64,000 nt of DNA from contig NZ_JAFDVD010000003.1 in assembly GCF_016887965.1 (NCBI RefSeq), positions 124,001-188,000 of the forward strand, given 5' to 3'. Within the stretch, counting starts at the first letter, position 1. Each line of letters starts with the position of its first letter. This document shows, piece after piece, positions 4,501 through 12,820 of the stretch. The stretch comes from Phycicoccus sonneratiae. Its GTDB lineage: Bacteria > Actinomycetota > Actinomycetes > Actinomycetales > Dermatophilaceae. Both the position numbers and the translations under genes were made by a program. The notes beneath the pieces are model-generated. The model was not told the origin of the DNA, searched no databases, and was given only the letters and a program-made list of their open reading frames with translations.

Positions 4501-4903
4501 TGAACTTCTCGATGCCGAGCTCGAGGATCTCGTCGGTGGTCTTGATGCCGTTGAGGCGCATCGCCTCCAGCTCGGCGGGCAGGCCGTGGGTGTCCCAGCC
4601 GAAGCGGCGCTCGACGCGGCGGCCGCGCATCGTCTGGTACCGGGGCACGACGTCCTTGACGTAGCCGGTCAGCAGGTGGCCGTAGTGCGGCAGGCCGTTG
4701 GCGAAGGGCGGGCCGTCGTAGAAGACGAACTCGTTCTCGCCGCGCTCGCCGGGGTCGCGCTGGTCGATCGAGGCCTGGAACGTGCCGTCGGCCGCCCAGT
4801 GCGAGAGCACCGCCTCCTCGACCTCGGGGAGGCGGGGGCTCGCGGGGACGCCGAAGGCCGCACCGGTGTGGTCGCCGGTGGTGGACACCCTGGGGTAGGT
4901 CAT
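1571..4903 (-). CDS. ileS: isoleucine--tRNA ligase
   Basis: Class I aminoacyl-tRNA synthetase of 1110 residues that charges tRNA-Ile. The HIGH box is HYGH at residues 73-76, KMSKS is near residue 660, and a large CP1 editing domain lies between them. The opening [16 protein letters not shown] and the length fit the eukaryote-like (type 2) IleRS common in Actinobacteria rather than the shorter E. coli type; this class is known to be less sensitive to mupirocin, but resistance here is only inferred. ATG 4903 has GCAGGAG at a good distance; the frame remains open into the leader, which is the T-box RNA. The gene is followed by an overlapping GNAT gene. Confidence 0.97.
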
Positions 4904-4912
4904 GGCGGTGCT

Positions 4913-5124
4913 GCTCCTGCGGGTCGTCGACTCGTTCCTCACGAGGACGACGGGCCCGGCCGCTCGCCGGGCACCTCCGCGGTACCACCTCGCTTGCCGC
5001 CCCGGAGGACGACCGCTCTTGCACCAGGTCGTGACGTGACCCCGACGTCCGGTTCTACTGGGGCCACCCGGGGGCGGCCCGTTCTTCCGGAGGCTCGCCG
5101 CTGATGACGGCTCGAACGCCTGTG
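4913..5124 (-). promoter_or_regulatory. T-box riboswitch, isoleucine type, upstream of ileS
   Basis: The minus-strand leader of ileS carries the T-box core AGGTGGTACCGCGG at 4990-4977. Its UGGU can pair with the ACCA end of uncharged tRNA-Ile. An AUC isoleucine specifier lies at 5105-5103 within UCAUCAGCGGCGAGC, the layout of ultrashort stem I T-boxes described in Actinobacteria. Downstream, CCUCG at 4945-4941 region can pair either with GCGAGG before the T-box core (antisequestrator) or inside the hairpin 4951-4923. The ribosome binding site AGGAG (4918-4914) follows directly and no U-tract is seen, so translational control is inferred. A possible -10 element TAGACT lies at 5136-5131. Confidence 0.9.
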
Positions 5125-5188
5125 CCCGGGAGTCTACCGGGGCGGACGCGCGGTTCCGACCGGGTTCCCGAGGAGGTAGCATCGCGGC

Positions 5189-5312
5189 GTCGCCCGTGAC
5201 GGGCGGCACCCACACGCACCTGTCTGGGGGAAGCCGGTCCGAGTCCGGCACTGTCCCGCAGCCGTAGGTCACCCGCGAGGGTGGCGAGTCGGAATGCCCA
5301 TCAGGCGCGAGC
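5189..5312 (+). promoter_or_regulatory. cobalamin (AdoCbl-type) riboswitch
   Basis: The conserved core GGGGGAAGCCGGTCCGAG, CCGGCACTGTCCCGCAGCC (the B12 box region and pseudoknot receptor), and then GAGTCGGAATGCCC at about 5285-5298, match the consensus of cobalamin riboswitches in order and spacing. The outer limits are approximate. An 8-bp perfect hairpin (GGTTCGGG, loop CGTCGT, CCCGAACC) at 5369-5390 sits directly before the ribosome binding site AGGAAGG and ATG 5406. There is no U-tract, so B12 probably blocks translation of the downstream operon. A weak promoter with -10 TAGCAT at 5177-5182 could start this RNA. Confidence 0.9.
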
Positions 5313-5405
5313 GGCTCCATCAACCCGTCGAGGAACGCGGGGCGGAGCCCGAGTGCCGGGGTTCCGGTGGTTCGGGCGTCGTCCCGAACCGCTCAGGAAG
5401 GCCCC

Positions 5406-6950
5406 ATGTCCCCCACCACGCTCCGCCCCGGCGCCCGCGCGCTCGGTGCCCTGCTCACGGCCGTCGTGCTCGTGGGCGCCCCCTCGGCCGCTCTCGCCGA
5501 CGACGCCACGCCGACGCCCACCGCGAGCGGCTCCCCCTCCCCGAGCGCCACCGACGCCTCGACGCCCACCCCGAGCGCGACGCCCACGCAGACCCCCGGC
5601 GACGAGCCGACCCCCTCGGCCACCGTCACGCCGGCGCCCACCGCGACCGCCCCGGCCCCCGCCCGCCCGGCGACGACGGCCCCCGTGCGGGCCCAGGTGC
5701 TCCCGGGTCCGGCCGAGCCCGAGACCCAGGCGGCCTCGGACTTCATCGCCCGCACCCTCGCGCAGTACGGCGACCACTACGTGTACCCCGACGGGGCGGG
5801 CGCCCTCGACCCCTCGGGCTACCCGGACCACGGCAACACGATCGACGCGATGATCGCGCTCACCGCCGCCGGGGCCCACCCCGACCAGGTCGCGCGCTCG
5901 CTCGCGTGGCTCGAGTCCACCGTCGGCTCGTACACCGGCGCCGACTTCGGCGCGTCCTACGTGGGCGCGACGGCCAAGGCGCTCATCGGAGTCGTCGTGG
6001 CCGGGGGCGACCCCCGGGACGTCGACGGCACGGACCTCGTCGCCCAGCTGGAGGCCCTGCGCACCCCGACCGGGCGGTTCAGCGACACCGGCGGGGACGA
6101 CTACACGATCACCCTGACCCAGGCCCTGGCGCTGCTCGCCCTCGACCGCGCGGGTCGGCCGGTCACCACCCCGTCGATCGAGCTCCTCCTCGACCAGCAG
6201 TGCGGTGACGGCGGGTTCCGCAGCGCCATCGGTGGTACGACCTGCGTCAGCGACCCCGACGCCACCGCCTTCGCGGCCCAGGCCCTCCTCTCGCTCGACG
6301 ACACCCTCCTCTGCTGGGGCGACGTCGACGGCACCCGGGCGGCGGCCGCGGCCGGTGCCGAGCGGGCCCTCGACCACCTGGCCGCGGCGCAGGACGCGTC
6401 GGGCGGCCTCGAGAGTGCCGACGGCATCCTCAGCGCGAACACCGCGGGCGTCGCCGGCCAGGCCTTCCTCGCCGACGGACGGAGCGCGGAGGCTGCCGAC
6501 GCGGCGGCCTTCGTCGCCACGCTCCAGTACGGACCCACCGCGCCCGCGGCGCTGCGCGGCGGGATCGCCAAGTCCGACGGCGACCGCTCGACGACCGTTC
6601 CGGCCGACACTGACCTGCGCGCGACGCCGCAGGCCGCCCTGCTGCTGGCCGGTGGCGACCTCCTCGACACCCTCGCGGAGGGCTCCGAGCCCGCACCGCC
6701 CGCGACCGTCTGCCCGGCGCAGCCGACGAGCACGCCGACGACCACCCCCACGTCGGGCACGGACCCGAGCACGACCGCGCCGGCCGGCGACGGCGGCTCG
6801 ACCCCGAGCACGCCCGTCGCGGCCGCCCCGGCGGGGGCGCTGGCCCAGACCGGCACCGACCCGCTGCTGCCGGTGCTCCTCGGGTTCGCGCTCGTGCTGC
6901 TCGGCGCCGTCGCGGTCGTGGCCTCCCGACGCCGGGGGGCGCACGCCTGA
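5406..6950 (+). CDS. exported prenyltransferase/squalene-oxidase-repeat protein, transcobalamin alpha-domain-like, LAxTG-anchored
   Basis: A 514-residue exported protein. It has a signal peptide (cleavage near ALA-DD, residue 34), a Thr/Pro/Ser-rich spacer to about residue 105, an alpha/alpha-toroid of repeated helical pairs (GNTIDAMIAL, AKALIGVVVAGG, TQALALLALDRAG, CGDGGFRS) to about residue 430, a second Thr/Ser/Pro spacer, and a C-terminal LAQTG motif followed by a hydrophobic segment and SRRRGAHA. LAxTG is the recognition signal of class E sortases, so the protein is probably cell-wall linked. Animal intrinsic factor and transcobalamin have an alpha/alpha barrel as their N-terminal half. 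Being first after a B12 riboswitch and next to a DUF4430 gene, it is inferred to bind cobalamins. ATG 5406 follows AGGAAGG. Confidence 0.8.
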   Translation: MSPTTLRPGARALGALLTAVVLVGAPSAALADDATPTPTASGSPSPSATDASTPTPSATPTQTPGDEPTPSATVTPAPTATAPAPARPATTAPVRAQVLPGPAEPETQAASDFIARTLAQYGDHYVYPDGAGALDPSGYPDHGNTIDAMIALTAAGAHPDQVARSLAWLESTVGSYTGADFGASYVGATAKALIGVVVAGGDPRDVDGTDLVAQLEALRTPTGRFSDTGGDDYTITLTQALALLALDRAGRPVTTPSIELLLDQQCGDGGFRSAIGGTTCVSDPDATAFAAQALLSLDDTLLCWGDVDGTRAAAAAGAERALDHLAAAQDASGGLESADGILSANTAGVAGQAFLADGRSAEAADAAAFVATLQYGPTAPAALRGGIAKSDGDRSTTVPADTDLRATPQAALLLAGGDLLDTLAEGSEPAPPATVCPAQPTSTPTTTPTSGTDPSTTAPAGDGGSTPSTPVAAAPAGALAQTGTDPLLPVLLGFALVLLGAVAVVASRRRGAHA

Positions 6951-7792
6951 TGCGCCGCCTCCTCGCCCGTCTCTGCGGTGCCGTCGCGGCGCTGGGCCTG
7001 GCCGGTGCCGGGCTCGCCGTCGTGGCGGCCCCGGCCCAGGCAGCGGCCTGCTCGGGGTCCACCGGCGTCACGGTCGTCATCGACACCGGCTCGTCGTCGA
7101 GCACGTCGTGCGCCTCGAGCGGCGGCACCGCCATGGCGGTGCTGAAGTCCGTGGCCACGGTCGTCAGCCCCCAACAGTTCCCCGGCTCGGTCGTCTGCCG
7201 CATCAACGGCACACCGGCGAGCGACCCGTGCGTCCGGATGCCCCCGGCCTCGGCCTACTGGGGGTTCTTCCACGCCCCCCGCGGCGGGTCGTGGACCTAC
7301 AGCAGCACGGGCGTCGCCTCGTACACGCCGGCCGCGGGCACGGTCATCGGCTTCCGGTTCGGCTCCGGCCAGCAGCCGCGCACCGCGCCGCCGGCCACGG
7401 CCTCGAGCCCGGCCCCGAAGCCGACGACGAAGCCCAAGCCGACCCCGACTCCCGCTCCGAAGAAGCCCACGGCCAAGCCGCGGCCGACCGGTGCCGGCGC
7501 GACGGCCGGTTCGTCGGGCGCCACTGCCGCGCGCCCGGGCGCCACCGGCGCCGCGCCGTCGGGCAGTGCGTCGCCGTCCGCCCCGGCCGGCGCGTCCCCG
7601 AGCCCCTCCTCGACGCTCGCCCCCACCGGGTCGCCGTCCGCGACCCCCGGCGACGGCACGACGACGCTCGCCTCGGAGCCGACGTCCACCGAGGCCCGGG
7701 GGTCCGGCGCCGGCACGCTGCTCGCCGGAGGTGCCCTCGTGCTGCTCGTCGCCGGTGGTGCGGGCGTCGCCGCCTGGCGCCGTCGCGGCTGA
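6950..7792 (+). CDS. exported DUF4430 (transcobalamin C-terminal-like) protein, membrane-anchored
   Basis: A 280-residue protein with a signal peptide (cleavage after AQA, about residue 31) and one beta-rich domain (about 33-145). The domain contains WGFFHAPRGGSWTYSSTG and YTPAAGTVIGFRFG, the pattern of DUF4430, the beta-domain that closes over cobalamin in transcobalamin and intrinsic factor. Four cysteines at the start and middle of the domain could form disulfides. A long Pro/Lys then Ala/Ser/Pro linker leads to a C-terminal transmembrane helix and WRRRG. The ATG overlaps the stop of the preceding gene by 1 nt (TGATG). It is inferred to be the partner lid of the upstream alpha-domain protein. 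Confidence 0.8.
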   Translation: MRRLLARLCGAVAALGLAGAGLAVVAAPAQAAACSGSTGVTVVIDTGSSSSTSCASSGGTAMAVLKSVATVVSPQQFPGSVVCRINGTPASDPCVRMPPASAYWGFFHAPRGGSWTYSSTGVASYTPAAGTVIGFRFGSGQQPRTAPPATASSPAPKPTTKPKPTPTPAPKKPTAKPRPTGAGATAGSSGATAARPGATGAAPSGSASPSAPAGASPSPSSTLAPTGSPSATPGDGTTTLASEPTSTEARGSGAGTLLAGGALVLLVAGGAGVAAWRRRG

Positions 7793-7813
7793 CCCGGCTG
7801 GGATGATGCCCCG

Positions 7814-8932
7814 GTGACCCGTCCGCTCCCCCGTGCCGTCCACCCGGCGGCGTGGTGGGGCTGGGCGGTCGGGCTCGCCGTGGCCGTCAGCACGACGACC
7901 AACCCGCTCCTGCTGCTGCTCGCCCTGGCCGTCACGTCGCTCGTCGTCGCCGCCCGCCGGGGGTCCTCCCCGTGGGCGCGGGCCTTCCGGCTCTACCTCT
8001 GGCTCGGGATGGCGATCGTCGCCGTCCGGCTCGTGCTCCACGTCCTCGTGGGGCTCAAGGTCGGCTCGACGCTGCTCCTGCCGCTGCCCGAGGCGAGGTT
8101 GCCGTCGTGGGCGGCGGGCATCCAGCTCGGTGGCGACGTGTACCTCGAGGGGCTGCTGGGGGCGGCGCTGCTCGGCCTGCGGCTGGCCGTCATCATCGCC
8201 TGCATCGGCGCGGCGAACGCGCTGGCCAACCCCAAGCGCCTGCTGCGGAGCCTGCCGAGCGCGCTCCACGAGGTCGGGGCCGCCGTCGTCGTGTCGGTGT
8301 CCGTGGCGCCGCAGCTCGCCGAGTCGGTGCAGCGGGTCCGCCGGGCCCGTCAGCTGCGCGGCGACGGCGGGCGCGGGCTGCGGGCCGTGCGACGCATCGC
8401 CCTCCCGGTCCTCGAGGACACCCTCGAGCGCTCGCTGCTGCTCGCGGCGGCGATGGACTCGCGCGGGTACGGGCGGTCCGGCGCGGCGCCGGAGCGCGAA
8501 CGGAGGCTCACCGGGGCGGTCGTGCTCGTCGGGCTGCTCGCCTGCGCCATCGGCCTCTACGGCGTCCTCGACGCCACCACGCCGGCCCTCCTCGGCACGC
8601 CGACCCTCGTCGTCGGGCTCGCGCTGTCGGCGCTCGGCCTGTGGCTCGGGGGCCGGCACGTGCGCACGACGACGTACCGGCCCGACCCGTGGCGCGGCGC
8701 GGAGTGGCTGACCCTCGGCTCCGGGGTCCTCGCGGCCGCCGCCACGACCGTCGTGGCCCGGACCGCCCCGGACGCCCTCGCCATGCCGCTCGACCCGCTC
8801 GGCGTGCCGGCCCTGCCGCTGGTCGCCGTCGCCGGGCTCCTCGTCGCGGCGCTGCCGGCCGTCCTCACCCCGGAGCCGCCGCGCCCGGCGCCCCGGGTCG
8901 TCGTGCGCGGGGCCGTGGGGGTGGCGGCGTGA
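7814..8932 (+). CDS. ecfT: ECF transporter transmembrane component EcfT (CbiQ family)
   Basis: A 372-residue membrane protein with several hydrophobic segments and the two coupling helices of EcfT. The first Ala-Arg-Gly-type motif lies in VRRARQLRGDGG and the second is AMDSRGYGRSG; these contact the ATPases. It should form the scaffold that links the two ATPase domains to a substrate-binding S component. It starts 21 nt after the DUF4430 gene and ends overlapping the ATPase gene (GTGA). The family also includes cobalt transporter CbiQ, but no CbiM or CbiN gene is present, whereas a separate S component is. Confidence 0.88.
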   Translation: MTRPLPRAVHPAAWWGWAVGLAVAVSTTTNPLLLLLALAVTSLVVAARRGSSPWARAFRLYLWLGMAIVAVRLVLHVLVGLKVGSTLLLPLPEARLPSWAAGIQLGGDVYLEGLLGAALLGLRLAVIIACIGAANALANPKRLLRSLPSALHEVGAAVVVSVSVAPQLAESVQRVRRARQLRGDGGRGLRAVRRIALPVLEDTLERSLLLAAAMDSRGYGRSGAAPERERRLTGAVVLVGLLACAIGLYGVLDATTPALLGTPTLVVGLALSALGLWLGGRHVRTTTYRPDPWRGAEWLTLGSGVLAAAATTVVARTAPDALAMPLDPLGVPALPLVAVAGLLVAALPAVLTPEPPRPAPRVVVRGAVGVAA

Positions 8933-10701
8933 GCGAGCACGCGGTCGTCCTCGAGTCGGTGTCGGTCGTGCCGGCCGGTGCCGAGGGTCCCGTCCTGCGC
9001 GACGTCGACCTCGTCGTCGAGGAGGGCGAGCTCGCGCTCGTCGTCGGACGCACCGGGTCGGGCAAGTCGACCCTGCTCGGCGCGATGTGCGGGCGGGTCC
9101 CGCACTTCACGGGCGGGACGCTGCACGGCCGCGTGCTCGTCCACGGCCGCGACACGCGTGAGCACCGCCCCCGCGACCTCGCCGACCTCGTCGGGGTCGT
9201 CGGGCAGGACCCGCTCGCCGGCTTCGTCACCGACACGGTCGAGGAGGAGCTGGCCTACGGGATGGAGCAGCTCGGCCTGCCAGCCGCGACGATGCGCAAG
9301 CGGGTCGAGGAGACGCTCGACGTCCTCGGCATCCCCGAGCTGCGTGGCGCCGCCCTGCGCGAGCTGTCCGGTGGGCAGCAGCAGCGGGTGGCCATCGGGT
9401 CCGTGCTCACCGCCCACCCGCGGGTCATCCTCCTCGACGAGCCGACCTCGGCCCTCGACCCCACCGGCGCCGAGGAGGTGCTCGCGACGATCACGCGGCT
9501 CGTGCACGACCTCGCCGTCACCGTCGTCGTCGCCGAGCACCGCGTCGAGCGGGTGCTGCACTACGCCGACCGGGTCGTCCACGTGGCGGTCGACGGCACG
9601 GTCACGGTGGGGGCGCCGGCCGGGGTCATGGCGACGAGCGACATCGCGCCGCCGGTCGTCGAGCTCGGCCGCTGGGCCGGATGGACGCCGCTGCCGCTGT
9701 CGGTGCGCGACGCCCGGCGGGCCGCCCGGGGGCTGCGCGAGCGGCTGGCCACCACCTCCGGGTCCGGGCCCGACGACGTGCCGGGCCCGGACGGCGCGCG
9801 CGACCCGTCCAACAATCGACACATTCGTCGAAAGATGGACGACCCCCACCCCACCGAACCGTCCAACAATCGACACATTCGTCGAAAGATGTCGACGGCC
9901 ACGTCCGCGCCGTCGGTCGTGCCGGTGCTGCAGGCGTCCGGGGTCGTCGTCCGGCACCCCGGCGACGTCGTCGCGGTGGCCGGGGTCGACCTCGACCTGC
10001 ACGCCGGCGAGGTCACCGCGCTCATGGGGCGCAACGGGTCCGGCAAGTCCTCGTTGCTCTGGGCCCTCCAGGGCAGCGGCGCGACCGCGGCCGGTCGGGT
10101 GCGGGTCGGTGGCCCGACCACGCCGGCCGTCGACCCCGCCGCCCTCGACCCCGTCGAGCGCCGGGCCCGCGTCGGCCTGGTGCCGCAGAGCGCCACCGAC
10201 CTGCTCTACCTCGACTCCGTCGGCGCCGAGTGCGCCCAGGCCGACCACGAGAGCACCGTCCCGGCCGGCACCTGCGCGGCGCTGCTCGCCCGCCTCGCGC
10301 CCGGCGTCCCTGCCGACCGGCACCCCCGCGACCTCTCCGAGGGTCAGAAGCTCGCCCTCGTCCTCGCCGTCCAGCTGACCGCGGACCCGCCCGTGCTCCT
10401 CCTCGACGAGCCGACGCGCGGGCTCGACCCCTCCGCCAAGGCCGTGCTCGCCACGACGTTGCGCGACCTCGCCGCGCGCGGCCGGTCGGTCGCCGTCGCC
10501 ACGCACGACGTCGAGTTCGTCGCCGAGTGCGCCGACCGGGTCGTCGTCATGGCCGCCGGTGAGGTGGTCGCCGACGGCCCGACCGCCGAGGTCGTCGTCT
10601 CCTCGCCCGCCTTCGCGCCCCAGGTCGCCAAGGTCCTGGCGCCGGGACCGTGGCTGACCGTCGACGACGTCCGGTCCGCCGCCCCGGGGGTGGCACCGTG
10701 A
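8929..10701 (+). CDS. ecfA: fused double ATPase of an ECF transporter (EcfA-EcfA')
   Basis: A 590-residue protein with two ABC ATPase domains. Domain 1 (about 1-285) has Walker A GRTGSGKST, signature LSGGQQQR, Walker B VILLDEPTSALD and switch His in AEHRVE. Domain 2 (about 330-570) has GRNGSGKSS, a divergent signature LSEGQKLAL, VLLLDEPTRGLD and THDVEF. The linker (about residues 293-321) encodes the peptide SNNRHIRRKM twice, from an in-frame tandem copy of a 33-bp DNA element with AT-richer, rare codons (AAT, CGA, ATT, AAG) unlike the rest of the gene. GTG 8929 overlaps the ecfT stop. It powers the transporter encoded on both sides. Confidence 0.92.
   Translation: MSEHAVVLESVSVVPAGAEGPVLRDVDLVVEEGELALVVGRTGSGKSTLLGAMCGRVPHFTGGTLHGRVLVHGRDTREHRPRDLADLVGVVGQDPLAGFVTDTVEEELAYGMEQLGLPAATMRKRVEETLDVLGIPELRGAALRELSGGQQQRVAIGSVLTAHPRVILLDEPTSALDPTGAEEVLATITRLVHDLAVTVVVAEHRVERVLHYADRVVHVAVDGTVTVGAPAGVMATSDIAPPVVELGRWAGWTPLPLSVRDARRAARGLRERLATTSGSGPDDVPGPDGARDPSNNRHIRRKMDDPHPTEPSNNRHIRRKMSTATSAPSVVPVLQASGVVVRHPGDVVAVAGVDLDLHAGEVTALMGRNGSGKSSLLWALQGSGATAAGRVRVGGPTTPAVDPAALDPVERRARVGLVPQSATDLLYLDSVGAECAQADHESTVPAGTCAALLARLAPGVPADRHPRDLSEGQKLALVLAVQLTADPPVLLLDEPTRGLDPSAKAVLATTLRDLAARGRSVAVATHDVEFVAECADRVVVMAAGEVVADGPTAEVVVSSPAFAPQVAKVLAPGPWLTVDDVRSAAPGVAP
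9805..9837 (+). repeat. palindromic element family C, copy 1 (inside ecfA)
   Basis: 33-bp direct repeat unit whose second copy starts 54 bp downstream. From 9807 to 9840 this copy is a symmetric interrupted palindrome: GTCCA, 4 nt, TCGAC, 6-nt loop, GTCGA, 4 nt, TGGAC. It is translated in frame as part of the linker between the two ATPase domains. Confidence 0.9.
9859..9891 (+). repeat. palindromic element family C, copy 2 (inside ecfA)
   Basis: Exact second copy of the 33-bp unit, same orientation and same reading frame (54 bp = 18 codons after copy 1). The inner TCGAC/GTCGA arms are intact, but the outer TGGAC arm is replaced by TGTCG where normal coding sequence resumes. Confidence 0.9.
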
Positions 10702-11579
10702 CGGCCGCGGCACCCGCGCGGCGCACCGCCGCCGTGGCGCTCCGGCCGCGGTCGGCGGCGGCCGTGGCCCTCGTCAGCGTCGCGGGGCTCGTCGCGTTCG
10801 GCTGGCCGCTGCTCGTCACCCCGGGGTCCGGCCTGGCGCACTCGACCGACGCCCCCCTCGTCCTCGCCCTCGTCCTGCCGCTGCTGCTCGCCGTCGTCCT
10901 CGCCGAGGTCGCCGAGGGCGGGATGGACGTCAAGGCCGTCGCGATGCTCGGGGTCCTCTCGGCGGTCGGCGCGGCGCTGCGCCCGCTCGGTGCCGGCACG
11001 GCCGGGCTCGAGACGGTCTTCTTCCTCCTCGTGCTCGGGGGGCGCGTCTTCGGAGCGGGGTTCGGCTTCGTGCAGGGCGCCGTCACCCTCTTCGCGTCCG
11101 CGCTCATCACCGGCGGCGTGGGGCCGTGGCTGCCCTTCCAGATGCTCGGGGCGGCGTGGGTCGGCTGGGGCGCCGGCCTCCTGCCGCGCGCGTCCGGGCG
11201 CCGCGAGGTGGCGATGCTCGCCGCGTACGGCGCCTTCGCCGGCCTCGCCTACGGGGCGCTGCTCAACCTCTCGTTCTGGCCGTTCTCGACCGGTCTGGCG
11301 GGCGAGCTGTCCTTCGTCGCCGGCGCCCCGCTGCTGGAGAACCTCCACCGCTTCCTCGTCTTCAGCCTCGCGACGAGCCTCGGATGGGACCTCGGCCGCG
11401 CGGTGACCAACGTCGTGCTCGTCACCCTCACCGCCCGACCGGTCCTCGGGGCCCTGCGCCGCGCCTCCCGCCGGGCCGCGTTCGGCGCCCCGGTGGCCTT
11501 CGCGGACGCCGCAGGTCAGGGCCGGTCGGCGCGCCCGGGGCAAGCCACACCGGAGGGCTTGGCACAATCGCCCCCATGA
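10698..11579 (+). CDS. ECF transporter S component (predicted cobalamin-specific)
   Basis: A 293-residue polytopic membrane protein with about eight hydrophobic segments, e.g. AVALVSVAGLVAFGWPLL, LVLALVLPLLLAVVLAEVA and VAMLAAYGAFAGLAYGALL. The central FGAGFGFVQGAVTLFASALITGGVGPWLPFQMLG is typical of the larger S components found next to EcfT/EcfA in Actinobacteria. It should bind the vitamin and topple in the membrane to deliver it. B12 as substrate is inferred from the riboswitch and the transcobalamin-like neighbours, not from a recognised binding motif. GTG 10698 overlaps the ecfA stop, and the 3' end overlaps the next ATG (ATGA). Confidence 0.8.
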   Translation: MTAAAPARRTAAVALRPRSAAAVALVSVAGLVAFGWPLLVTPGSGLAHSTDAPLVLALVLPLLLAVVLAEVAEGGMDVKAVAMLGVLSAVGAALRPLGAGTAGLETVFFLLVLGGRVFGAGFGFVQGAVTLFASALITGGVGPWLPFQMLGAAWVGWGAGLLPRASGRREVAMLAAYGAFAGLAYGALLNLSFWPFSTGLAGELSFVAGAPLLENLHRFLVFSLATSLGWDLGRAVTNVVLVTLTARPVLGALRRASRRAAFGAPVAFADAAGQGRSARPGQATPEGLAQSPP

Positions 11580-12115
11580 ACCCCCTCGAGCTGGACCGCG
11601 ACCCCGCCTGGCTGAGCCGCGAGGAGCTCGACTCGGCGCGCGAGAAGCTCCCGATCCTCTACGTCGACGCCGTGCCGGTGCGCGTCGACGAGCGGGGCGA
11701 GGTCTCGGCCCTCGGGGTGCTGCTGCGCCTCGACGGGGAGGGCCGGGTCTGCCGCGAGCTCGTGTCCGGCCGGGTGCTGCACCACGAGCGCGTGCGCGAT
11801 GCGCTGCTGCGGCACATCGAGAAGGACCTCGGGCCGGTGGCCCTCCCCCGCATCCCGGCCTCGCCGCAGCCGTTCACGGTCGCCGAGTACTTCCCGACGC
11901 CCGGCGTCACGCCCTTCCACGACCCGCGCCAGCACGCGGTCTCGCTCGCCTACGTGGTGCCGGTCGCCGGCGACTGCGCCCCTCAGAACGACGCCCTCGA
12001 CCTCACCTGGCTGACGCCGAGCCAGGCGCTCGACCCCGGCATCCAGGCCGAGATGGAACGCGGCCACGGCGTGCTGCTCCGCCAGGCGCTGGCCCACCTC
12101 GGCCACTCCGTCTGA
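11576..12115 (+). CDS. NUDIX hydrolase family protein (DUF4916)
   Basis: A 179-residue cytoplasmic protein matching the actinobacterial DUF4916/NUDIX family by the segments PILYVDAVPVRVDE, HHERVRDALLRHIEKDLGPVALPRIP, TVAEYFPTPGVTPFHDPRQHAVSLAYVVPV and ALDLTWLTP. No canonical complete NUDIX box is seen, so hydrolase activity is uncertain. ATG 11576 overlaps the S-component stop (ATGA), placing it at the end of the B12-regulated operon; whether it has a role in B12 use is unknown. A 79-bp palindrome follows 13 nt after the stop. Confidence 0.8.
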   Translation: MNPLELDRDPAWLSREELDSAREKLPILYVDAVPVRVDERGEVSALGVLLRLDGEGRVCRELVSGRVLHHERVRDALLRHIEKDLGPVALPRIPASPQPFTVAEYFPTPGVTPFHDPRQHAVSLAYVVPVAGDCAPQNDALDLTWLTPSQALDPGIQAEMERGHGVLLRQALAHLGHSV

Positions 12116-12128
12116 CCCGCCCGCTCTT

Positions 12129-12207
12129 CCCCGACCTTGTGGGGGCACATCCGGTGAAACGCCGCAGAAACCGGGTGTCTGGCGGACGGCGGCCCACAAG
12201 GTCGGGG
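12129..12207. repeat. 79-bp palindromic element family A, copy 1
   Basis: Intergenic element with perfect 15-bp terminal inverted repeats (CCCCGACCTTGTGGG and its complement) and inner inverted repeats around GCAGAAACCGGGTGT. A second copy of identical length lies at 12742-12820 on the other side of the VOC gene, in the same orientation. It could act as a transcription terminator for the B12 operon. Confidence 0.9.
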
Positions 12208-12741: not shown

Positions 12742-12820
12742 CCCCGACCTTGTGGGGGCAGGTCCGCTGAATCGGCGCAGAAACCGGGTGTCCGGCGGAC
12801 GGCGCCCCACAAAGTCGGGG
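12742..12820. repeat. 79-bp palindromic element family A, copy 2
   Basis: Same length and orientation as copy 1, with terminal arms differing at one base (CTTG against AAAG) and the core GCAGAAACCGGGTGT conserved. It lies between the convergent VOC and acyltransferase genes and nearly touches the acyltransferase stop codon, so it may serve both as terminator. Confidence 0.9.

Follow-up and report, generated by a model that had tools for sequence, protein, structure and literature searches.

A B12-riboswitch operon of Phycicoccus sonneratiae encoding an energy-coupling factor transporter and two exported proteins, putative halves of a transcobalamin-like binder

The stretch of Phycicoccus sonneratiae DNA analysed here is 64,000 nucleotides long (contig NZ_JAFDVD010000003.1, positions 124,001 to 188,000) and is referred to as the window. 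Near its start lies a single operon on the plus strand, made of a cobalamin riboswitch and six genes. The first two genes encode exported proteins, which we call P1 (5406..6950, 514 residues), an alpha/alpha-toroid protein, and P2 (6950..7792, 280 residues), a DUF4430-like protein resembling the beta domain of transcobalamin. They are followed by the parts of an energy-coupling factor (ECF) transporter, namely the transmembrane component EcfT (7814..8932, 372 residues), a fused double EcfA ATPase (8929..10701, 590 residues) and an S component (10698..11579), and by a DUF4916/NUDIX-like gene (11576..12115). P1 and P2 overlap by 1 nucleotide, a gap of 21 nucleotides separates P2 from EcfT, and the EcfT/EcfA, EcfA/S and S/DUF4916 junctions are overlaps of 4 nucleotides each. 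The initial annotation of this DNA had described the riboswitch, the two exported proteins, EcfT, the double EcfA and the S component as tightly packed, and this was confirmed by the coordinates and by Rfam and Pfam matches.

The riboswitch aptamer spans 5190..5324 on the plus strand. Its core, at 5227-5299, matches Rfam family RF00174 with 34.3 bits, above the gathering threshold of 31.5, while the wider span is that of an operon-family covariance model, R1, which scores 115 bits and for which the window is one of 16 training sequences. Folding of the leader gave a z of -1.24, with 25 of 200 shuffled sequences folding equally well or better. EcfT and the two EcfA moieties were recognized above Pfam cut-offs: EcfT is CbiQ-like (CbiQ, 38.4 bits, cut-off 25), and the double EcfA contains two ABC_tran stretches. 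In NCBIfam, the double EcfA is above the cut-off of TIGR01166 (cbiO) and under those of ECF_ATPase_1 and ECF_ATPase_2. The S gene begins with a GTG that overlaps the EcfA stop; its product matches ECF_trnsprt of Pfam with 24.1 bits (E 4.1e-5), under the cut-off of 30.7, and is conserved at 53-88% identity among nine aligned relatives.

Both P1 and P2 start with signal-peptide-like stretches, as read by eye. P1 has a PT-rich linker and ends in LAQTG, a hydrophobic stretch and a basic tail, a combination that scored 15.7 bits with TIGR01167 (cut-off 15.9). P1 would be held at the wall or at the membrane by this putative C-terminal anchor. In P2, the DUF4430-like domain occupies approximately residues 31-147 and contains conserved cysteines and a YW..W motif; a C-terminal hydrophobic anchor follows, consisting of a hydrophobic stretch and a basic tail, without LPXTG.

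Related operons were collected by scanning 84,980 species, one genome each, with an S-component alignment, which yielded at least 556 confirmed relatives. The 80 loci kept (L066-L145) are the best-scoring relatives and not a random draw; their named hosts are actinobacteria, plus one 'uncultured bacterium'. After removal of the 21 loci in which the sequence ahead of the S gene is shorter than 7 kb, gene content upstream of EcfT was counted in the remaining 59. EcfT and the double EcfA were each present in 58, P2 in 56, and P1 in 43, always together with P2. P2 without P1 was encountered upstream of EcfT in 13 operons, and neither gene in three. For three of the 13 P2-only operons (L090, L107, L127), P1 was located elsewhere in the locus; for the other ten, P1 was sought in the whole genomes, within a set of 12 genomes, and was found elsewhere in six and not found in four. 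The order P1, P2, EcfT, EcfAA, S is that of most loci holding both P1 and P2. Because this gene order recurs in most of the P1-bearing related loci examined, and because the whole host genome contains only two RF00174 matches, we consider that the operon is not a chance assembly. In a set of 39 related genomes that includes the host's own, 18 matched P1 and 19 matched P2, a few of these matches being weak or partial. Initial scans of viral and genome contigs with a single P1 sequence had given zero matches.

The covariance model, built from 16 leaders including that of the window, was then applied to the window and to the 80 loci, with E 0.01 as the limit. It returned 85 matches, the training sequences matching by construction. 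Under a fixed distance rule, a riboswitch preceded the first P1, P2 or EcfT gene in 55 of the 59 operons. In two more, L123 and L126, it preceded a later P1 of the operon, bringing the total to 57, and in L076 and L082 no riboswitch was found with this model. An independent check with Rfam on 14 loci found RF00174 or AdoCbl above gathering directly upstream in nine (L066, L097, L103, L134, L136, L137, L139, L141, L143), and no cobalamin riboswitch above gathering directly upstream in L076, L086, L090, L133 and L138. A further RF00174 search covered 49 genomes, from which rows were picked by hand and mapped via contig coordinates; a row, in some cases below gathering, lay before the operon or its P1 in at least 25 of the 49 loci, which is a lower bound. 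The initial annotation had raised the question of whether the two genes always accompany this riboswitch and EcfT. We find P1, P2, riboswitch and EcfT together nearly always, though not always, the P2-only operons making up 13 of the 59.

P1 and P2 genes are also present outside this arrangement. Fifteen loci hold P1/P2 units that are not upstream of EcfT, and 10 of these units have a riboswitch of their own (L094, L097, L103, L106, L107, L109, L111, L115, L119, L124). In six of the 15, the unit follows the S gene closely and in the same orientation; three of these have a riboswitch (L106, L107, L115) and three have none (L090, L117, L127). Where P1 was found unlinked by the genome search, an RF00174 match was located 156-265 nucleotides before it in five genomes out of six; three of these matches are over gathering, and two are just below it, at 29.1 and 30.3 bits. 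We conclude that P1/P2 genes form a B12-riboswitch regulon of their own.

Seven of the P1 proteins encoded outside the operon are solitary (L094, L103, L106, L107, L109, L111, L119). All seven have a signal-peptide-like N-terminal stretch, and none has a hydrophobic C-terminus, compared to 35 of 45 operon P1 reading frames; the L[AP]xTG motif as such occurs in 18 of 57 P1 reading frames. With a signal-like start and no C-terminal anchor, some toroids look freely secreted, and the solitary, riboswitch-controlled ones may perhaps act as secreted B12 scavengers. Among the other P1 genes outside the operon, that of L097 reaches the end of its contig, and L124 has two, one of them with an anchor.

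The affiliation of P1 was examined with profiles. The window protein matches SCO2321_fam of NCBIfam (2.4e-16, 59.6 bits, under the cut-off of 300), its only Pfam match, to Prenyltrans, is sub-threshold, and it has no match to Cobalamin_bind of Pfam. Among 46 aligned toroids, window included, Pfam at E<=1 gave Prenyltrans in 35 and SQHop_cyclase_C in 32 (best 2.1e-8). Shifted matches of P1 start approximately 50-60 residues apart, a spacing compatible with some six hairpin repeats over 330 residues. Cobalamin_bind was found in none of 198 Actinomycetota genomes, a search in which the controls gave no match either. What the sequence supports is that P1 belongs to the broad class of toroids that also includes the alpha domain of transcobalamin, and no more than that; P1 matches squalene-hopene cyclases far better than it does the transcobalamin alpha domain.

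For P2, an alignment of 52 sequences (A3, residues counted from window residue 31) showed Cys 24, 53 and 64 and Trp 74 and 85 to be invariant, and Cys 4 to be nearly so. SCO2322_fam of NCBIfam matches 51 of the 52 domains, including that of the window, which scores 28.1 bits, under the cut-off of 85. The relationship with DUF4430 emerged from profile-profile comparison. Aligned with hhalign to 27 DUF4430 proteins of other Actinomycetota, P2 scored 35.2 over 89 collinear columns, compared to 16.7 for the best of 60 column-shuffled decoys and 10.8 for the reversed profile; a second profile-profile run, against 25 of these proteins, gave a score of 42.1 (E 5.5e-7). The DUF4430 profile itself, when compared with the PDB, had as best matches a putative metal-binding protein (2e-4) and then a SUI1 homolog (0.0036); two of its eight matches are transcobalamins, both weak (a transcobalamin-1 chain at E 0.1, transcobalamin-2 at E 0.72). 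P2 is thus a divergent DUF4430 domain, linked to the animal beta domain only indirectly. The assignment of P2 as a DUF4430-type beta half is borne out by the profile comparison, and the further connection of the DUF4430 profile to the transcobalamins is a weak one.

DUF4430 matches were present in 34 of the 198 Actinomycetota genomes, and ten of the corresponding loci were inspected. A B12 riboswitch, cobalamin or AdoCbl-II, stands before the DUF4430 gene or the gene directly upstream in four of the ten (L178, L181, L184, L185). L182 has a divergent riboswitch beside its DUF4430 cluster, and no riboswitch above gathering was found in the other five. In L178, at 4826-9446, a reading frame of 1538 codons begins at an AdoCbl-II riboswitch and combines DUF4430 domains with a beta-propeller-like stretch that scores below cut-off.

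Unlike transcobalamin, which is a single chain, the window has its toroid and beta domain on separate genes. Eight reading frames were found in which both domains are joined. Three have the toroid first: L092 (603 codons, with a short linker), L086, whose halves are still separated by an anchor-like stretch, and L054, where P1 lacks its end and P2 its start. The other five have the beta domain first, in L067, L097 and L139, and, with a second toroid, in L087 and L120. Six of the eight are clean fusions, that of L092 in the toroid-beta order and those of L067, L087, L097, L120 and L139 in the beta-toroid order. That the two halves belong together, as had been proposed, is supported by these fusions in both orders. 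Tandem toroids within one frame were also encountered (14 frames, for example in Amycolatopsis).

A further rearrangement concerns both domains at once. In L116, L130, L136, L137 and L141 (Streptomyces sp. SCUT-3), P1 is circularly permuted, the second half of the profile coming first. P2 is circularly permuted in the same five loci and in L142 and L065, seven in total; the P1 of L142 is cut by the contig end, and none was found in L065. With hhalign, the swapped blocks scored 208 and 104 for P1, where shifted matches between internal repeats reach 78 and 62, and 85.5 and 43.6 for P2. The second half of the permuted P2, taken alone, aligned with the first part of DUF4430 at 33.2, the score of its first half (10.8) not being significant. 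The L141 proteins reach 512 bits with SCO2321_fam (cut-off 300) and 220 bits with SCO2322_fam (cut-off 85); P1 of L116 and L136 score 197 and 220 bits with the former, under 300, and P2 of L116 scores 145 with the latter, over 85. On the basis of these scores, we place the permuted proteins with SCO2321 and SCO2322. DUF4430 domains in general share the order of the window, so that the permuted form is probably derived. L134 is not permuted, yet its sequence is close to the permuted form. In a midpoint-rooted tree of EcfS and EcfT, the permuted forms group together near the root, which is suggestive only.

The metabolism of the host was considered next. Its genome, 98.8% complete, encodes six PF02310 B12-binding domains over cut-off, and MetH, methylmalonyl-CoA mutase, IcmF and the alpha subunit of lysine 5,6-aminomutase are all over NCBIfam cut-offs, further B12-enzyme-like proteins falling below theirs. 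CbiC gave no hit in the host genome, compared to matches in 7 of 14 control genomes. Possession of B12 enzymes together with the lack of a CbiC hit indicates that the host probably imports B12. The other RF00174 riboswitch of the genome stands before a ribonucleotide reductase alpha gene of the NrdA/NrdE type (L200:5919-8705).

Taken together, the riboswitch in 57 of 59 operons, the riboswitch-bearing unlinked P1 genes and a B12-using host without a CbiC hit support the link to B12 that had been put forward, and the locus is very probably a corrinoid uptake operon. We further consider it probable, with less assurance, that P1 and P2 act together as a transcobalamin-like binder. The following scheme can be proposed. 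When B12 is plentiful, the riboswitch would presumably shut the operon. When B12 is scarce, the cell would export the P1 toroid, which would stay attached to the wall or membrane, together with P2, a beta-grasp domain of DUF4430 type anchored in the membrane. These would be the separated halves of the binder, the corrinoid lying with one face against the toroid and the other capped by the beta domain. The membrane-held beta half would then hand the ligand to the S component, and EcfT and the double EcfA would drive import. We infer B12 binding, its location at the P1-P2 interface, the hand-over to the S component, and cobalamin, as opposed to a precursor, as the ligand. A bolder version, which we put forward tentatively and hold to be somewhat less than an even chance, is that of a two-piece clamp with exchangeable toroid and cap, under riboswitches of their own and either anchored or secreted, in which a diffusing toroid would serve as a 'B12-phore' docking on the membrane cap and transporter. 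If true, the paired permutation would show that the clamp closes on its ligand independently of chain order.

Several results weigh against the proposed scheme. Compared with the PDB, the P1 profile found squalene-hopene cyclases best (1.2e-31) and complement C4 chains as well, and no transcobalamin was among the 60 matches listed of 61. The N-terminal half of P1 gave four PDB matches, the best at 0.0016 with a TALE protein, and none of them to a toroid or a transcobalamin. Cobalamin_bind was matched at E<=1 by only 5 of the 46 toroids (best E 0.0087), compared to 15 of 46 for the complement TED domain at the same limit. On the side of P2, Pfam gave no match for the window protein, DUF4430 (PF14478) included, and DUF4430 matched only one of the 52 aligned domains (E 0.15), and the P2 profile retrieved only two antibody chains from the PDB. 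The S-component profile matched zero PDB chains, so that no tie to the characterised CbrT could be made. The survey adds five of the 15 extra P1/P2 units in which no riboswitch of their own was found (L086, at a contig end, L090, L117, L127 and L143), and the four genomes with P2 in which the genome search found no P1. As to the fusions, those of L086 and L054 could be small deletions or sequencing errors, and L067, L087, L120 and L139 have a separate P2 beside EcfT in addition to their beta-toroid fusion.

Part of these observations would fit a corrinoid transporter without a joint binder, in which delivery of the ligand falls to P2 alone, P1 being a scaffold of the wall or scavenging independently. 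P2 adjoins EcfT and is more constant than P1 (56 compared to 43 of the 59 operons), it may work alone in the four genomes because no P1 was found there, and the seven solitary P1 proteins combine a signal-like N-terminus with the lack of a C-terminal anchor. We nevertheless regard this alternative as rather unlikely, since P1/P2 fusions occur in both orders, most unlinked P1 genes have kept a B12 riboswitch, and one lineage has both domains permuted together. P1 might instead be a secreted enzyme resembling class II terpene cyclases, or an adhesin resembling thioester domains, as its best PDB profile matches, the squalene-hopene cyclases and the complement C4 chains, would suggest. Where the cyclases carry their DxDD motif, the last Asp is absent in 46 of the 46 toroids, the residue being A, S, G, T or V, and P1 is therefore unlikely to be a cyclase. 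It moreover looks exported, its genes stand behind B12 riboswitches, and some relatives have it fused to P2; we give an enzyme or adhesin role hardly any credence. Cobalt transporters are often under B12 riboswitches too, and EcfT and EcfA are CbiQ/CbiO-like, so the ECF complex could import cobalt for B12 synthesis in the manner of CbiMNQO, the exported proteins serving something else. The S component, however, has no CbiM match in Pfam or NCBIfam, and a host whose genome gave no CbiC hit would gain little from cobalt for making corrins; cobalt import is thus very improbable, and cobalt and enzyme roles were both judged unlikely. Finally, the ligand may be a B12 precursor or analogue, such as cobinamide or other corrinoids. 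The present results do not separate cobalamin from other corrinoids, and BtuF captures cobalamin and cobinamide alike, according to the part of PMC5997447 consulted; we hold a ligand other than cobalamin to be unlikely. The reading in which P1 and P2 bind jointly is the one that we prefer.

A few features of the region stand apart from this question. The DUF4916 gene (Pfam DUF4916, 284 bits), which the initial annotation covers by its coordinates but does not mention, was present in 30 of 100 loci examined and is 87-98% identical in nine loci of the same genus. An inverted-repeat element with CCGACCTTGTGGG-like arms occurs in two copies, one behind the DUF4916 gene (12131-12205) and one behind the next gene (12744-12818). 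The linker of the double EcfA contains an exact, in-frame direct repeat of 33 bp (9805-9837 and 9859-9891), and relative L046 aligns there with approximately 42 fewer codons. A PADLOC search gave zero matches.

Many actinobacteria use B12, and to our knowledge its passage across their thick envelope has not been settled. The operon offers named parts for B12 capture and import in these bacteria, and from it a role can be suggested for the Streptomyces families SCO2321 and SCO2322. For the evolution of transcobalamin it provides a natural series that comprises unjoined halves, fusions in the two orders, toroids in tandem and the circular permutation of both domains together. The interpretation first given to the locus is thus upheld in part, for the link to B12, the beta half and the association of P1 with P2; the toroid half is not transcobalamin-specific by its sequence.

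The general idea has been known since 2007. In the part of their article consulted, Burroughs et al. 2007 (PMC1796856) defined a transcobalamin-like clade of beta-grasp (SLBB) domains and reported that in bacteria these domains are fused to a toroid in either order, are secreted and anchored, share operons with CbiO/CbiQ, and usually occur in hosts deficient in B12 synthesis. The role that they suggested was the scavenging of B12, and in their view animals acquired the domains from Gram-positive bacteria by gene transfer. The description of the system as built from animal-like domains is therefore probably to be reversed on the strength of these excerpts, which already contain the scavenging idea. 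The proteins studied here share with those of PMC1796856, as far as its excerpted text goes, an exported toroid and beta-grasp domain, both fusion orders, CbiO/CbiQ neighbours and predicted B12 scavenging. They differ in that the clade listing in these excerpts names animals, low-GC Gram-positives, planctomycetes and, less often, euryarchaea, whereas ours are from Actinomycetota, have a P2 under Pfam DUF4430 detection and usually have their halves on separate genes. The riboswitch survey, the unlinked secreted toroids and the paired circular permutation go beyond what that text contains. In the open-access literature searched, we recognized no description of split, actinobacterial or permuted forms; apparently undescribed are the split form of the actinobacteria, the toroids encoded away from the operon under riboswitch control, and the joint permutation of both domains.

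Among known systems, animal transcobalamin, intrinsic factor and haptocorrin have their toroid followed by the beta domain in one chain, as in L092, and P2 is linked to them via DUF4430; the window differs by its two surface-anchored proteins and by the lack of a transcobalamin-specific signal in P1. ECF-CbrT of Lactobacillus delbrueckii is likewise an ECF-type B12 importer (PMC5997447), from which the window is distinguished by an S component without PDB match and by a toroid/beta-grasp pair that the consulted part of that article does not mention. A Lacticaseibacillus protein is labelled 'Additional lipoprotein component of putative cobalamin ECF transporter' in the excerpt of PMC9963975 available to us. 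The SCO2321_fam and SCO2322_fam proteins of Streptomyces sp. SCUT-3 (L141) occupy the same place before EcfT under a B12 riboswitch, and are circular permutants of the window's domains. In Bacteroides, BtuB/BtuG capture B12 at the surface ahead of transport; the operon described here would share this purpose of surface capture, and achieve it with unrelated parts and without an outer membrane receptor.

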